Part shown: one piece after another, positions 6,722 through 30,655 of the stretch
How the letters are laid out: each line of letters begins with the position of its first letter
Position numbering within the stretch: the stretch's first letter is position 1
Notes under the pieces: generated by a model
The model's input: the letters and a program-made list of their open reading frames with translations, nothing else
Databases searched by the model: none
What the model was told of the DNA's origin: nothing
Translations under genes and position numbers: made by a program
From: Aggregatibacter actinomycetemcomitans
GTDB lineage: Bacteria; Pseudomonadota; Gammaproteobacteria; Enterobacterales; Pasteurellaceae
NCBI RefSeq assembly: GCF_003130205.1
Contig: NZ_NRDF01000013.1
Span: forward strand, 1 to 54,628
DNA: 54,628 nt
Direction of reading: 5' to 3'

Positions 6722-9169
6722 TTAGTGTTTCAAGGTTCTTAAAATATCGGCGAAAATACCGGCGGCAGTCACTGCATTACCGGCGCCGTAACCGCGTAAT
6801 AATAACGGAATTGGCTGATAATAACGAGTATAAAATGCAAGGGCGTTTTCACCGTTTTTCACTTTGTATAGCGGATCGTCTTTGCCTACTTCAATAATGG
6901 AAACTTTGCATTTGCCGTTTTCGATTTGCCCTACATAACGTAACACTTTTTCTTCCGCCTGAGCTTTTTCGATGCGGGCATTGAATTCGCCATCTAACTG
7001 CGGCAATAATGCCATGAATTCTTCAGTGGATTTCCCTTCGGCAAAGCCTTTTGGTAACACGCCTTCCACGTCTATATCTTCCAATTCCAGTTCTAATCCG
7101 CTTTCACGGGCTAAAATCAGTAATTTACGGGCAACATCCTGACCGGAAAGATCGTCACGTGGATCCGGCTCGGTGAAGCCTTTTTCTCGGGCAAGTGCAG
7201 TGGCTTGGGAAAGCGTTAAACCTTCTTCCAGTTTACCGAAAATAAAGGAAAGGGAGCCGGATAAAATCCCATCGAAGCGTTCCACTTCATCGCCTGCAGC
7301 GAGCAGATTCTGTAAGTTTTCGATGACCGGCAAGCCTGCGCCGACATTGGTTTCGTATAAGAATTTACGTTGGTTTTTATGTGCCAGTTCACGCAGTTTG
7401 TGGTAATAATCCAACGCGCGGGTATTGGCTTTTTTATTCGAGGTCACCACATGGAAACCTTCCGCCAAGGCGCGTTCGTATAAACCGGCGAGGGATTCTG
7501 CCGACGTGCAATCCACGAAAACCGGGTTCACCACATGATGTAATTTAATGAAAGAGAGCAGTACGTCGAAATCCGACGGTTGGGTAGCGTTTTCTAAGTC
7601 CGTTTGCCAATGATCTAAATTTAAGCCGTTTTCATTGAGCAACATTTTGTTGGAATTCGCGAGGGCGCAAACGCGAATTTCAATGTCTTTCTTTGCCAAA
7701 TATTCTTTTTGGTGTTTGATTTGCTCGATTAATTCGCCGCCGACACCGCCGACGCCTACGAGAAATACTTCAACGAGCTTTTTGTTGTTAAATAACGCTT
7801 GGTGCGTTGCTTTCACGGCCTCAATGGCTTTATTTTGCGCCACCACGGCGGAAATCGAACGTTCGGAAGAACCTTGAGCAATGGCATTAATGCTGATATT
7901 CGCTTGTGCTAACGCGGAGAAGAAGCGGGCGGCAATGCCTTTGGCTTGACGCATACCGTCGCCTACCACGGAAATGATGGATAAATCTTTAATCACTTCA
8001 ATCGGATCCAACTGATGGGCTTTTAACTCTTGCGCAAATTCTGCTTCTAAGGCTTTCAGTGCTGCATCAACGGATTTTACCGGCACGCAGAAACTGATGC
8101 TGTATTCGGAGGAGGACTGGGTGATTAAAATAACCGAAACTTTCGCAGTAGACATGGCGGAAAATACGCGGGAAGCCATGCCTACCATGCCTTGCATACC
8201 CGGGCCGGAAACATTGAACATCGCCACATTATCTAAATTGGTAATGCCTTTTACCTGTAAGCCTTCGGATTTGATGTCACCGGCGATAACGGAACCCGGC
8301 GCGCTCGGATTGCCGGTATTTTTAATTAAACACGGAATGTTCGGACGCACTAACGGACCGATGGTGCGCGGGTGGATGACTTTGGCGCCGAAGTAGGAAA
8401 GTTCCATGGCTTCACGATAAGACAGGCTTGGCAATAAACGTGCATCGGGCACTAAACGCGGGTCACAGGTATAAACACCGTCAACGTCCGTCCAGATTTC
8501 GCACACGCTGGCACCCAAACAGGCGGCTAAACAAGCGGCGGAGTAGTCGGAACCGTTACGCCCCAATAACACGAGTTCGCCTTGCTCGTTACAAGCGGTA
8601 AAGCCCGCCATTAACACCACTTTATTTTTGCCGATGGATTTCGCATCCACCCGTTTGGTGGATTCTTCAATATCCACGGAAGATTCCAAATAACTGCCTT
8701 GGGCTAACAATTGTTTCACTGGATCAACCACATGCACTTCATAACCATTGGCTTCAAACCAGGCTTTCATCATGGCGATGGAAAGTTTTTCACCGCGGCA
8801 ATCGATGGTGGCTTTGAGCTCATCTTCCACTTTGCCGTCCTGACGGATTTTTTCTAATAATGACGCGATTTGTTGGAATTCTTGGTCGATGATTTGTTTG
8901 GTGCCGGTAAGATCAAAGTGGCTATTTTTGGCGTGCAAACCGTTAATTATGGTGTAGAAAATATCTAATGCTTCGTTGAAATGGGAATCGGTAGATTGAT
9001 TTAAACTGGCTTTTTCGGAAAGGGCGACAAGGTGATTGGTGATTTTGGCAGGTGCCGATAAAACGCCTGCCGCCTGTTCTTCCAAATGGGCCTTTTCAAT
9101 AAGCTCCGCCGCCTGTAAAAACCGTTCCGGATTGGCTAAGGAAGTGCCCCCAAATTTAAGTACGCGCAT
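6722..9169 (-). CDS. thrA: Bifunctional aspartokinase I / homoserine dehydrogenase I
   Basis: I place the start at the ATG at 9169 ([10 protein letters not shown]), preceded by AGGAGAATATC. This gives 815 residues, close to E. coli ThrA. A longer in-frame start at 9271 would run through the attenuator and is unlikely. Order: aspartokinase domain with KFGGTS at 4-9, two ACT regulatory domains around 310-450, then homoserine dehydrogenase with the Rossmann loop GVGGVGGE near 467. It catalyses the first and third steps of threonine synthesis and is feedback-inhibited by threonine in the family. Regulation by attenuation is shown by the upstream leader. Confidence 0.97.
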
Positions 9170-10911: not shown

Positions 10912-11599
10912 TATTCGACGTAATTTACAGCTGGTTCAGCAAAAAATAACCCAAATCTGCCAGATGATTGGGTCCTCACCAAGTGCGGTTACTTTACTGG
11001 CTGTTTCTAAAACCAAGCCTGTTGAAGATATTTTAACAGCGTATGAAGCAGGGCAGGCGGCATTCGGAGAAAATTATGTACAGGAGGGAGTGGAAAAAAT
11101 TCAATTCTGCCAACAGCAAAATATTAACTTGGAATGGCATTTTATCGGCCCGTTGCAATCCAATAAAACCCGTTTGGTGGCGGAGTATTTTGACTGGATG
11201 CAAACCCTTGATCGTGCCAAAATCGCCGATCGGTTAAATGAACAACGTTCTCCCCATAAAGCACCGTTAAATGTGTTAATTCAGGTGAATATCAGCAATG
11301 AAGCCAGCAAATCCGGCGTTCAGCCCGGTGAAATTTTAGACCTTGCAAAACACCTGGAAAACTTACCGCACTTATGCCTGCGTGGCTTAATGGCGATTCC
11401 CGAACCTACCGATGATGTGGTTCGGCAGGAACAAGTGTTTTATCAAATGCGCACTTTGTTTGAACAATTACAACAAGCCTTGCCGAACGCCCAAATCGAC
11501 ACCTTATCCATGGGCATGACCGATGATATGCAAACGGCAATCAAATGTGGTTCCACCATGGTTCGCGTAGGTACAGCAATTTTTGGAAAACGGGTTTAA
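10904..11599 (+). CDS. yggS: YggS/PLPBP family pyridoxal phosphate homeostasis protein
   Basis: I place the start at 10904 (MDNIRRNLQLV), overlapping the nadV stop by 8 bases; a start at 10853 lies inside nadV and lacks similarity. The protein has 231 residues with an alanine-racemase-like barrel. The PLP lysine is in LLAVSKTKP (Lys36); HFIGPLQSNK and the C-terminal LSMGMTDDMQTAI phosphate-binding region are intact. The family controls free PLP levels. The overlap implies translational coupling to nadV, an uncommon neighbour. Confidence 0.93.
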   Translation: MDNIRRNLQLVQQKITQICQMIGSSPSAVTLLAVSKTKPVEDILTAYEAGQAAFGENYVQEGVEKIQFCQQQNINLEWHFIGPLQSNKTRLVAEYFDWMQTLDRAKIADRLNEQRSPHKAPLNVLIQVNISNEASKSGVQPGEILDLAKHLENLPHLCLRGLMAIPEPTDDVVRQEQVFYQMRTLFEQLQQALPNAQIDTLSMGMTDDMQTAIKCGSTMVRVGTAIFGKRV

Positions 11600-11647
11600 C
11601 TTATATAACAGTATGATCAAACAGTAAATAAAAATCTAATTTTATTG

Positions 11648-12484
11648 TTAACTATTACGTGCTAACCATTTCCGTACACTTGCTTGCTCAGCCTTACTTA
11701 ATTGTTCATATTGCATAATCACTTTCTCTACCGTTAACGCCTGTTCAGACGAGGCGAATAGTGATTTTACATAACTATTGGCAGGCTGTTGTTGGATTTC
11801 GTTTGGTGTACCTACTTGCACCAGTTTCCCATTCTGCATGACGCCAATGCGACAAGCAAGTTTTAAGGCTTCTTGCATGTCATGAGTAACGAACACGATA
11901 GTTGTGCCGAATTTTTTATGGATCAACGAAATTTGATCTTGTAAGGCAGTTCGCACCAGTGGATCAAGTGCAGAAAATGGTTCATCCATGAGCAATAAAT
12001 GAGGATTAGCAGCAATAGCCCGTAAAATGCCTATCCGTTGTTGTTCTCCACCGGAAAGTTCGCGCGGATAGCGATCCTGATATTGTGCAGGTGGCAAATT
12101 CACTAATTCAAGTAATGTATTCACACGGGATTTCCGTTCATTTTTGTGCCACCCAAGAATATCAGGCATCAAGGCAATGTTTTGCGCTACGGTCATGGTG
12201 GGGAATAGGGCGATTTGTTGTAATACATAACCGATGCGATGACGTAAGGTATGGATGTTGTAATCTTTAATCCGTTTACCTTGAAAATATACATCTCCAT
12301 CTGTAGGTTCGGTGAGGGCGTTGATCATGCGCAATGTTGTGGACTTACCGCTACCTGAACCTCCGACTAATACGAAGAATTCGCCTTGATAGATGGTCAG
12401 ATTTAGTGTTTGCACTGCATGTTGTCCGTCATAATATTTGCTTACGCCGCGAAATTCGATAAAAGGTGTGCGATTAATTTTCAT
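11648..12484 (-). CDS. ABC transporter ATP-binding protein, osmoprotectant (OpuC/ProV) type
   Basis: The protein has 278 residues. Walker A is GGSGSGKST at 41-49, the signature is LSGGEQQR, Walker B is LLLMDEPFSALDP, and the switch histidine is in FVTHDMQEA. The sequence is of the quaternary-amine importer class (glycine betaine, choline, carnitine), but it lacks the long C-terminal CBS domains of ProV. It should power the permease encoded upstream at 12797-14308. A 312-base gap with no convincing gene separates the two. Confidence 0.85.
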   Translation of the reverse strand: MKINRTPFIEFRGVSKYYDGQHAVQTLNLTIYQGEFFVLVGGSGSGKSTTLRMINALTEPTDGDVYFQGKRIKDYNIHTLRHRIGYVLQQIALFPTMTVAQNIALMPDILGWHKNERKSRVNTLLELVNLPPAQYQDRYPRELSGGEQQRIGILRAIAANPHLLLMDEPFSALDPLVRTALQDQISLIHKKFGTTIVFVTHDMQEALKLACRIGVMQNGKLVQVGTPNEIQQQPANSYVKSLFASSEQALTVEKVIMQYEQLSKAEQASVRKWLARNS

Positions 12485-27913: not shown

Positions 27914-27928
27914 TTGGTTGATTTAAAT

Positions 27929-27963
27929 AAAAAAGGCTTAAGTCGAAAACTTAAGCCTTTTTT
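27929..27963 (+). terminator. Terminator after the YfcZ-family gene
   Basis: AAAAAAGGCTTAAG (27929-27942) and CTTAAGCCTTTTTT (27950-27963), a perfect 14-bp stem with a 7-base loop. It may work on both strands. Confidence 0.92.
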
Positions 27964-28146
27964 ATTATAACTCGATGTATTCTATTTACGATGAAATTAA
28001 CTTTTATTGATGATTTTTACTATCGGGTTATTTCACTCTAAAGCAGTGCTAAAGTAAGTCTTTTGAATAATTATATGTATTATTATCTTTCCCTGCAGGT
28101 GTTTTGTACATCTGGTTTAGAGTAGATTTTTACTGTAGAGGTGTTT

Positions 28147-28272
28147 ATGAAAGAGTTAAAAAATCAATGTTTGCATGGGATTTTTGGTGGAGCAGATAGT
28201 TTCAATCCACATAATTACTGTTGTGAAGAATGTCTTAGAGCAGGATTATGTGATCCTCCGGATGCTAAATAG
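28147..28272 (+). CDS. Short Cys-rich ORF with a double-glycine-type leader, bacteriocin precursor candidate
   Basis: A 41-residue ORF preceded by AGAGGTG. The first 15 residues, MKELKNQCLHGIFGG, fit the double-glycine leader pattern (MKEL then hydrophobics at spaced positions then GG) cut by C39 peptidases. The rest has four cysteines, including CCEECLRAGLC. A decayed C39 exporter and a SunS-like glycosyltransferase lie next to it. The TAG stop is in frame with the glycosyltransferase remnant and sits where that family has a Trp (TGG). Part of the C-terminus may therefore come from the glycosyltransferase after a deletion. The role is inference. Confidence 0.5.
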   Translation: MKELKNQCLHGIFGGADSFNPHNYCCEECLRAGLCDPPDAK

Positions 28273-29050
28273 GAACCTAATTTTTCTGAATTAAGAAATT
28301 TTGCTCTGGAATGTTGTGGCTATTCGTGGGTATTTTTTATAGATGCTGATGAGTGGGTTGATGGCAGAGCGTACATAGATCTTCGAGACTTTCTTATTAT
28401 GTATGGTAGATGCAACGACACAACAGTTTTTTGCCCTAGGTTTTTAGATTCTAAAAATAATAAAAATTATGGTGTTGGGAGAATATTCAAAAATAATGGA
28501 CTCATTAAATACAATGGAAGAGTGCATGAATACCCATGTTCTAAAAATAGCATAGTTAATATACCTATAAAAATTGATATTTATCATGATGGATATGATA
28601 ATATCTCTATCTTAAGTAAAAAAATTGATAGAAATATAAGGCTATTAGAGATAAATCAAATAGAGGAGCCTTATAATATAAGATGGAAGTTTTTTCTCGC
28701 TAGGGATAATTTTAGTTATAAAAAAGATGTTTTTTGATTTTTTGGATCTTTTATTTATTTAATTTCCTGATACAGGGTATTTTAAACGGGCATATATTAT
28801 GCTTATTTTTAAGTTTTTAGAGGATGGGCGTGTAGATAAGGCTATTGAGTTTATAGAAAAATATGATCATTTTATAGATGATAAAAGTATAAATTTTTAT
28901 TTTGTCAAGAAAATATCTCTAATTAAGTTATCTTTAGGGACCGTTTCATTGTTGGATAATATTATTAACGAGTCAAATAAGGTTAAAAATTCATTTTTGG
29001 ATAATGAATTATATAGGTTATCATCAATAAACTCTGAAGGGGGTATTTAG
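28273..29050 (+). pseudogene. SunS-like peptide S-glycosyltransferase (GT2), truncated and frameshifted
   Basis: From 28273 the frame encodes PNFSELRNFALE and WVFFIDADEW; the DxD sugar-nucleotide motif is at 28342-28350. Then come GRIFKNNGLIKYNGRVHEYP and IDIYHDGYDN, and after those NIRWKFFLARD. This order matches SunS, the glycocin glycosyltransferase, as I recall it. The frame ends at 28737 and resumes in another at about 28763 (GYFKRAYIMLIFKFLEDGRV), running to 29050 with the helical C-terminal region. The N-terminal nucleotide-binding third (about 100 residues) is missing. A second frameshift may extend homology to about 29110. The product cannot be active. Confidence 0.75.
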
Positions 29051-29127
29051 ACGAAATTATCATGTTTGCTAACGAATTAAGAAGCTTTTTTAAATTTAAG
29101 TTTGGTTTTTAATTAAGAGGGTATTAT

Positions 29128-29457
29128 ATGTATCAATATATTAATTCAGATTTGTTAAATGAAATTAGGAATGGAAATAATGTGTCTTTTAACGATGTTG
29201 AAAATATCTCTTTACTTTATGATGAATTAAGCCATTATTTTTATAGTAATGGGATAAAATATAAACTTCATACCAATGATTATTCATCAATGTTCTATAA
29301 TACTGGACTATCAAATGCATTACATCCCGGACTAGCTATTTTATTTAACTTTATTGGGTTCTTTTCGGTTTTTTTTAGGAATATCTTTATTAAAAGTGAA
29401 CTGTCTATTTATATAAGTAATAAAAATAAAATGCTTGAAATAAGATATTCAAATTAA
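29128..29457 (+). CDS. Small membrane protein of unknown function, possible immunity protein
   Basis: The protein has 109 residues and I do not recognise it. It has a good Shine-Dalgarno (AGAGGG). One hydrophobic segment covers about residues 66-90 (HPGLAILFNFIGFFSVFF). The base composition is very AT-rich like the rest of the island. Small single-span proteins beside bacteriocin precursor and exporter genes are often immunity proteins; that is the only reason for the suggestion. It is the only intact-looking gene of normal size in the island. Confidence 0.5.
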   Translation: MYQYINSDLLNEIRNGNNVSFNDVENISLLYDELSHYFYSNGIKYKLHTNDYSSMFYNTGLSNALHPGLAILFNFIGFFSVFFRNIFIKSELSIYISNKNKMLEIRYSN

Positions 29458-30511
29458 TTATAGATTTATAGTGTATTTTGAATTTTTATTTAGTTTATCC
29501 AGTTCAACATAATAGTCTGCTGAGTCAATAGTAGATTGTCTGTGAGCTACTATAACCCGAGTAATATTTAACCGGGAAATTGAGATGTTAATTGCTTTTT
29601 CATTTTTCTCATCTAAGTAGCTAGTCGCTTCATCCATAAATAAAATATACAGTCTTTTGTATAGAGCACGAGCGATAAATAACCTTTGGCGTTGGCCCCC
29701 GGAAAGGTTATTTCCTAGTTCTCCTAAACGAGTTTCGTAATTCATTGGCATTTTCATAATTTCATTATGAATCTTAGCTAATTTTGCACACTTAATAGCA
29801 AATTCCGGATCATATTGATCTTCAAAGCTGACAATATTCTCAATTATTGAGCCTGAAAAGAATTTATCCTCTTGTAAAATCATAGTAATTTTTGAACGAT
29901 AATTTTGTAACTTTAATAAGTGGGAAAAGAAACTTGCAGTCTATTGAAAATTAATTAAATAATCCACTTTCAAAGAAATCTATGCCTTTAGCATACTGAC
30001 TGATGAAGTGAAAAAATGTGAATAAGAGAAGCCCCAAGCAAATTATAAAGAGTAATGATTTATTTTTCGAGCTCATTACATGATCCATTACGAGTTTTGT
30101 TCTTACCAGCATCAATAGTCCAACTAACTCAATTAGTATAGAGAGTGAAAATACCTTAATTAACTCTCCTTTAACTCCCGAGATATGTTTTAAGATTTCA
30201 TATAAGCTGATTTTTTCTGACTTTCTGACTTTCCTTTCTTAAATTTAACTTCAGACCATATCTCTAAAGTAACACCTGTAAATGAATTGGATAATTGTTT
30301 TATAGAAACTTTTCTTTTACCTATCGCGGGATCATGAATAGTTGCATAATTTTTAGTAATTTTGGTTAGAACAACAAAATGATTAAAATTCCAATATAAG
30401 ATACAAAGAAGCTTTAATTGGCAAATCTCCTCTAACTAACTGCGCCAGTAATAGTCCCATTTCTTACAGCTACGATTTCCACCCACTATAAATTTACTTA
30501 AATATTTTCAT
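29458..30511 (-). pseudogene. C39-peptidase bacteriocin ABC exporter, decayed
   Basis: A start with GGAGG at 30511 opens a broken gene. Its C39 peptidase part reads LYWNFNHFVVLTKI and IHDPAIGKRKVS, then SFTGVTLE, with the catalytic His and Asp. The region that should hold the catalytic Cys is full of stops. Membrane-domain pieces follow in another frame (HISGVKGELIKVFSLSILIE). The last open part (29458-29883) is the ATPase C-terminal half: Q-loop ILQEDKFFSGSI, signature LSGGQRQR, Walker B LFMDEATS and H-loop IVAHRQS. Walker A and most helices are gone. The family (CvaB/LagD/SunT) cleaves double-glycine leaders and exports the peptide. Confidence 0.8.
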
Positions 30512-30655
30512 TTATCCTCCAACACAAAAATAAATAAGGAACTTTCAATTTTACCAAGGCTATATCTACTAAATGAATATTATAACCCCAACTACAATTA
30601 ATAATAATTCGAAAGATAAAAACAATTATAAACAGATTTCTTGGGTAATTTTAAT

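Follow-up and report, generated by a model that had tools for sequence, protein, structure and literature searches.

The window, i.e. the whole stretch of 54,628 nucleotides analysed here, contains between yfcZ and murA an island of approximately 2.7 kb (27967-30655) with the start of a double-glycine peptide gene, the broken genes of a glycosyltransferase (GT) and of a C39-peptidase ABC exporter, and one membrane-protein gene that is intact. According to a six-frame reading of 27914-30655, with edges placed by comparison with empty sites, the island begins past the terminator stem located 3' of yfcZ and ends at the murA stop codon. The peptide, GT and 109-aa membrane protein genes are carried by the plus strand and the exporter remnant by the minus strand. 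A first-pass annotation had described at 28000-30600, between housekeeping genes, an AT-rich island made of a leader-bearing ORF, a GT, a small membrane protein and a C39 exporter, with the GT and the exporter broken. All four parts were recovered, yfcZ lies on one side and murA on the other, and both the GT and the exporter are indeed in pieces with domain halves missing; only the edges proved slightly wider than first drawn.

The GC content of the island is 28.3%, compared with 43.7% elsewhere in the window, where the lowest value for any non-overlapping stretch of equal length is 33.9%; the AT-richness relative to the neighbours is therefore clear. The 9-mer AAGTGCGGT, which we take to be the uptake-signal sequence, is found 39 times in the window and never in the island, a count that says little since only about 2 copies would be expected there. 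Promoter prediction gave 13 promoters, against 16.7 expected from shuffles.

Peptide ORF and leader

The first gene of the island is a 41-aa ORF extending from the ATG at 28147 to the stop at 28272 on the plus strand, with a GAGGT stretch resembling a ribosome-binding site upstream. It starts with a double-glycine leader of exactly 15 residues ending in Gly-Gly (28147-28191), of the microcin precursor type, followed by a core remnant (28192-28272) that terminates at an in-frame stop. To score the leader, a profile was drawn from eight short ORFs located near C39 exporters in four other Pasteurellaceae genomes (all with 15-residue leaders, seven ending in Gly-Gly and one in Gly-Ser); five loci duplicating the window were kept out of the comparison. 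The window ORF reached 34.1 bits, the runner-up among the 3127 starts of the window 9.4 bits, and none of 500 shuffles of the island attained the leader score (best shuffle, 14.6 bits). Two ORFs outside the training set also scored highly, with 34.7 (L084) and 26.8 bits (L086). The double-glycine leader proposed in the first-pass annotation is strengthened by these values, and it is of the Gram-negative type met in class II microcins.

When the 41 residues were compared by tblastn with eight loci, using the short words and disabled composition correction that these matches required, the two best matches were peptides encoded beside C39 exporters in two family genomes: that of G009 (48% identity over 29 residues, 5e-4) and that of the congener G003 (44% over 25 residues, 0.007). 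With default settings and 22 loci, no match was obtained at E 0.01. The G009 and window leaders are identical at 10 of 15 positions, and a C-x-x-C motif lies near the start of the core in the window as well as in the G003 and G009 precursors. The CX6C pair is absent from the 41-aa ORF, the end of the core having probably been lost.

The in-frame stop at 28270 falls in an alignment column occupied by one conserved residue in all eight aligned SunS-like enzymes, so the GT homology extends across the stop. The 41-aa ORF is consequently best read as an in-frame peptide-GT fusion, most simply, and probably, created by a deletion. Two other readings of this ORF were considered. As a complete glycocin precursor it is rejected, given the stop within the GT homology and the lack of a CX6C pair. 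As the N-terminus of the GT itself it is disfavoured, since by eye it lacks the motif found in the GT after the first Cys and its leader fit amounts to 34 bits; MAFFT does place part of the ORF at the GT N-terminus.

Glycosyltransferase

The central part of a SunS-like GT is encoded by an open frame at 28276-28734 on the plus strand, and the gene can be followed in further frames until about 29112. Approximately 115 N-terminal residues are absent, and the piece retains the DAD, HE and HDGY motifs, whose roles in the enzyme are presumed here. The segment 28735-29112, in other frames and with stops, probably continues the C-terminal tail of the same GT, as suggested by a weak colinear similarity to residues 300-360 of the Edwardsiella GT (pairwise E 0.016, no composition correction).

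The best solved relatives in a PDB search are 7msk (5e-13) and SunS (1e-12), the next being the flagellin GT GmaR (2e-5); entries 7msn and 7msp support the assignment as well. The piece is 33-41% identical over approximately 145 residues to plasmid-encoded GTs of Pantoea, Photobacterium, Edwardsiella, Lactiplantibacillus and Enterococcus, with 38-40% for the GTs of Edwardsiella tarda pEtSC002-2 and of the genome G485, 27% for SunS itself and 19-20% for four generic rows. The description of this GT as SunS-like is supported by both the structural matches and the identities to GTs of bacteriocin-like loci. The converse case raised at the time, a better match to LPS-type GT2 enzymes, did not show in the comparison with generic, putatively LPS-type GT2s of the family, to which the piece is less close than to the bacteriocin-type enzymes.

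TIGR04195, the SunS model, matches the piece over positions 118-263 with 60.5 bits (E 1.3e-16), against a cut-off of 350 bits for a piece that is truncated; the Pfam GT2 match is weak (E 0.2). The same model is matched in 139 of 140 family genomes, among which the window tops the ranking by just 4 bits, and six generic family GT2s of approximately 255-320 aa scanned as a control score 50-54 bits (2e-13 to 2e-14), none of them above the cut-off of any curated model. Since the generic enzymes score nearly as well, the model score by itself says little about a SunS-type identity. The matched region is different: the six generic proteins align with the front part of the model (53-160, with ends at 146-160), the window piece with 118-263; some other family rows extend to position 262.

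A tree of 26 rows was built, including nine generic loci out of the 30 TIGR04195 loci (the window being one of the 30) and six other GT-matching family genomes. The window GT groups with SunS, the ASM1 and pTEF2 enzymes and the enzymes of Gram-negative clusters, and the nine generic rows stand across a 100/98 branch. The SunS side is little resolved internally and also holds six family proteins of approximately 395 aa on a long branch; its nine bacteriocin-side rows do not form one clade in the best tree, a single clade not being rejected (p 0.40). By tree path, the enzymes closest to the window GT are those of Photobacterium, Edwardsiella and Pantoea, in a tree whose bootstrap had not settled and which joins long branches, including that of the window piece.

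At E 0.001, seven of the 140 family genomes match the GT piece, the six besides the window with values of 1e-6 to 3e-4. These six loci (L076-L081) encode GT2s of approximately 395 aa, some of which cover TIGR04195 60-280, with a TPR match in one of the two scanned and no C39 exporter match in the 10-14 kb covered; the family also has GT2s of about SunS length without a neighbouring exporter. At E 1e-8, a match was found in two of 394 genomes of the order sample (the window and G485), and in the class sample of 369 genomes the window was joined by a single weakly matching one. Among plasmids, 118 records match, of which 108 are from Enterococcus. Public genome contigs gave 14 loci, the best from Paenibacillus (37%), and viral contigs 12 weak relatives. 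The Edwardsiella GT had no DNA-level match among 5,426 E. coli genomes.

Membrane protein and exporter

The only intact gene of the island (29128-29454, plus strand) is preceded by a GAGGG stretch and encodes a 109-aa protein with one hydrophobic segment at about residues 64-89, in agreement with the small single-span membrane protein first annotated. It belongs to no recognised family and has no match among plasmids; in the 140 family genomes weak matches occur in 10 others, the best at E 0.0016 and with stops. Its position after the GT is shared with a 78-aa hydrophobic ORF in the G485 locus (L082). From its place, size and survival, our guess is that it could be a candidate immunity protein.

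The exporter remnant (30435-29461, minus strand) is fragmented. The second half of the C39 peptidase domain is found at 30193-30435 (Peptidase_C39 9.4e-16, profile 71-131 of 133), and the first half, where we presume the catalytic Cys to be located, is missing. The first transmembrane part follows at 29954-30238 in a frame different from that of the C39 part (79% aa identity with the G003 exporter over 75 residues), and the nucleotide-binding part lies at 29461-29940 (ABC_tran 6.4e-12; 82% with G003 over 142 residues). These two profile matches uphold the earlier assignment to a C39-peptidase ABC exporter, so that the glycocin-style pair of double-glycine leader and C39 exporter is present, with the exporter broken. 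An internal deletion accounts for part of the damage: two blocks with 85-86% DNA identity to the exporter at the same junction in G003 are contiguous in the window, with their junction at 29905-29912, and 887 bp apart in G003, where a short direct repeat (seen by eye) borders the extra segment on both sides. The exporter is far closer to G003 (82% aa identity) than to Edwardsiella (54%).

The remaining AT-rich stretch, 30436-30655 (minus strand), has as its G003 counterpart the exporter start, HlyD, the membrane gene and the peptide gene. A search with two intact HlyDs as queries found no HlyD remnant in the window. A second exporter that might act in trans was also sought in the same genome, where the next match is a 741-aa protein with 30% identity, of which the first residues were inspected.

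The yfcZ-murA junction in congeners

The junction was compared in eight other genomes of the genus. Five of them (L090, L091, L092, L093 and L096) have an empty site, with yfcZ and murA convergent, approximately 70 bp apart and separated by one stem, which leaves about 2.7 kb extra in the window. In two others (G001 and G005) yfcZ was not found within approximately 7.5 kb beyond murA. The eighth, G003, is occupied (L083 4522-8398) by a microcin-like locus with a peptide gene, a small membrane gene, HlyD and a C39-ABC exporter, and has no GT. Its peptide ORF and 61-aa membrane ORF are intact, HlyD contains two stops, the ABC gene runs across shifting frames, and the exporter ends approximately 60 bp from yfcZ. 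Frames for HlyD and C39-ABC without internal stops occur in G018 and G035, the lone stop of the G018 ABC gene lying at codon 691 of 699, where homology ends.

The first-pass annotation had looked to this junction in other genomes for an intact version: one congener does carry a related locus there, but five are empty and the version in G003 is itself decayed. No intact copy of the peptide, GT and 109-aa genes was found among the 140 family genomes. The fear that relatives of the locus would lack a peptide gene is removed by G003, which has one.

Identities between the window and G003 are 70-72% for fadL, 83.5% for yfcZ, 81% for murA, and 85 and 74% for the next two genes, i.e. 70-85% for the flanks against 85-86% for the broken exporter. 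As a decaying gene should diverge faster than its neighbours, it appears likelier that the island was exchanged at this site from one species to another than that it descended vertically since long ago, an argument that weakens if the decay is recent.

Related clusters elsewhere

In Edwardsiella tarda plasmid pEtSC002-2 (L066), a 125-aa gene annotated as NifS, a 70-aa peptide with a Gly-Gly leader, a GT, HlyD and a C39-ABC exporter stand in one row, and G485 (L082), a genome from the taxonomic order of the window, has this set as well, its GT frame containing one stop at codon 403 of 460. In Photobacterium pPHDD1 the GT adjoins HlyD and a C39-ABC exporter lies within 4 kb. In Pantoea (L067) a 121-aa gene and a peptide gene accompany the GT, and further along come genes for an MchC-like protein and an acyltransferase; no C39 exporter is annotated in the stretch examined. 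The CX6C pair is absent from the Edwardsiella, Pantoea and G485 peptides.

Several observations on these loci deserve mention in their own right. The protein of approximately 125 aa accompanies the peptide and the SunS-like GT at L066 5095-5472, L067 6947-7312 and L082 about 8185-8495; its annotation in both L066 and L067 is 'nitrogen fixation protein NifS', and it has a sub-threshold PTS_IIB match in L066 (0.0025) and none such in L067, and could possibly be an accessory or immunity factor. The Pantoea peptide (7302-7562), which adjoins the SunS-like GT near the MchC-like and acyltransferase genes, has a Gly/Ser-rich tail; such a tail and an MchC-like gene resemble siderophore microcins. By annotation, the L066 cluster has microcin B17-like genes and genes for colicin immunity and lysis on its flanks (1-326 and 11208-11696), which makes it, judged from these annotated sequences, a bacteriocin-rich plasmid region. 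On the minus strand of G009 (L088 9107-12091), the C-termini of three precursors of microcin type have in common a tail that finishes with GDGCNYQ. A JmjC-domain protein of 386 aa (PF08007, 6e-28) is encoded among them and a C39 exporter nearby; this is possibly an oxygenase-modified microcin set.

Interpretation

Microcins of the microcin V type, in class II, have a precursor, an immunity protein and an exporter made of an HlyD-type protein and a C39-ABC protein. Glycocins have a core in which CX6C pairs surround a glycosylated loop. We consider it quite probable that the island is what remains of a class II microcin locus, now dead, in which a SunS-like enzyme would have glycosylated the peptide, and that it is not a canonical glycocin locus. 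Few Gram-negative examples of such a combination are known. Judged from the sequences, its leader and exporter are in the style of the family members that have HlyD partners. Of the glycocin-type system first proposed, the SunS-like GT, the double-glycine leader and the C39 exporter stand. A CX6C pair in what is left of the core and, among the seven pieces scanned, a thioredoxin-like gene were not found, and the best reading moves from a glycocin to a glycosylated class II microcin.

In such a system, the precursor made would be short and begin with a double-glycine leader of 15 residues, and the GT would attach a sugar to its core at Cys, Ser or Thr. The C39-peptidase ABC exporter, working with a partner of the HlyD type and an outer membrane protein like TolC, would then cleave the leader after Gly-Gly and secrete a peptide with putative killing activity, from which the 109-aa membrane protein may have shielded the producer. 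The locus no longer has HlyD, the peptidase half with the active site, the central segment of the exporter or the N-terminal portion of the GT, and the last part of the peptide has probably gone too. We infer the link between GT and peptide from their neighbourhood and from the intact-looking clusters elsewhere, L066 and L082, where a SunS-like GT, a leader-bearing peptide, HlyD and a C39-ABC exporter occur together.

A different history, in which two unrelated dead modules share one site, is rather unlikely. One module would be an unmodified microcin exporter locus as in G003, the other a separately acquired set of peptide, GT and membrane protein. Two points speak for this and count against one system: the GT and the exporter are on opposite strands, and the best-matching exporter, which stands at the same site in G003 with its end approximately 60 bp from yfcZ, has no GT beside it, so that GT and exporter need not belong together. 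They are outweighed in our judgement by the window leader, which matches in type and in its length of 15 residues the leaders found near such exporters, and by the sets of SunS-like GT and C39 exporter in Edwardsiella and G485.

A true glycocin locus, of the sublancin or glycocin F type and transferred from Firmicutes, is highly improbable: the GT matches and the low GC would fit, but the remaining core has no CX6C pair, the seven island pieces scanned contain no thioredoxin- or BdbA-like gene (lost genes being possible), the exporter is closest to those of the same family, and the GTs nearest by tree path are Gram-negative. Just as hard to sustain is a polysaccharide or other GT2 enzyme unrelated to any bacteriocin, which the poor Pfam match and the near-equal TIGR04195 scores of generic GT2s would allow and which the more distal position of the match on that model, the identity to GTs of bacteriocin-like loci and the 100/98 branch oppose.

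If the glycosylated class II microcin reading of the window is extended to the related clusters, the Gammaproteobacteria would have their own lineage of such microcins, combining a SunS-like GT with microcin export, on plasmids and chromosomes of several families, with the window as a Pasteurellaceae fossil in which a putative immunity gene was kept last; on the sequences compared, we hold the chances of this broader proposal to be evenly balanced. If true, the coupling of a SunS-like enzyme to microcin export in Gram-negative bacteria would constitute a novel route to modified microcins. The window alone can show no more than the arrival of such genes on a chromosome of Pasteurellaceae type and their death there.

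Comparison with known systems

Thermoanaerobacterium, a glycocin producer, is Gram-positive. In the portions consulted of two papers on glycocins (PMC6405829, PMC12457901), few are named and the producers are Gram-positive. Peptide S-glycosyltransferase domains are described in RiPP areas of Bacteroidales in the part seen of PMC10352776, so that Gram-negative cases have already been flagged outside Pseudomonadota. For the Pasteurellaceae, class II microcin matches are given for 1.5% of the species sampled in PMC9746304, the consulted part of which contains no word that starts with 'glyco'. As far as their consulted sections go, PMC8549736 describes clusters of thiopeptide-like and aryl polyene type for Aggregatibacter, with glycocin only within a category list, and PMC10986600 states that bacteriocin studies were not known for H. 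parainfluenzae, A. aphrophilus or A. sp. HMT-458. A 'glycosylated microcin' or a SunS-like microcin cluster of Pseudomonadota was not among the best matches in the open-licence literature, which does not imply absence from print.

The locus shares with the glycocins (sublancin 168, glycocin F, ASM1 and loci that we take to be enterocin 96-like) a SunS-like peptide GT, a double-glycine leader and a C39 ABC exporter. It differs from them in having no CX6C-paired core, no thioredoxin-like gene found, a Gram-negative host, an HlyD partner in the congener and a dead state. With the class II microcins of the microcin V type it shares the 15-residue double-glycine leader and a C39-ABC exporter like that of HlyD-bearing family members, a likeness extended by the congener G003 with HlyD and a small membrane gene at the same site; it differs from them by its SunS-like GT, an enzyme with which no class II microcin was associated in the literature searched. 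The clusters of E. tarda pEtSC002-2 and G485 differ from the window by an accessory gene of approximately 125 aa (NifS in Edwardsiella), another core, the gene order and the strands, and have HlyD in place; they share with it the SunS-like GT, the leader-bearing peptide and the C39-ABC exporter.
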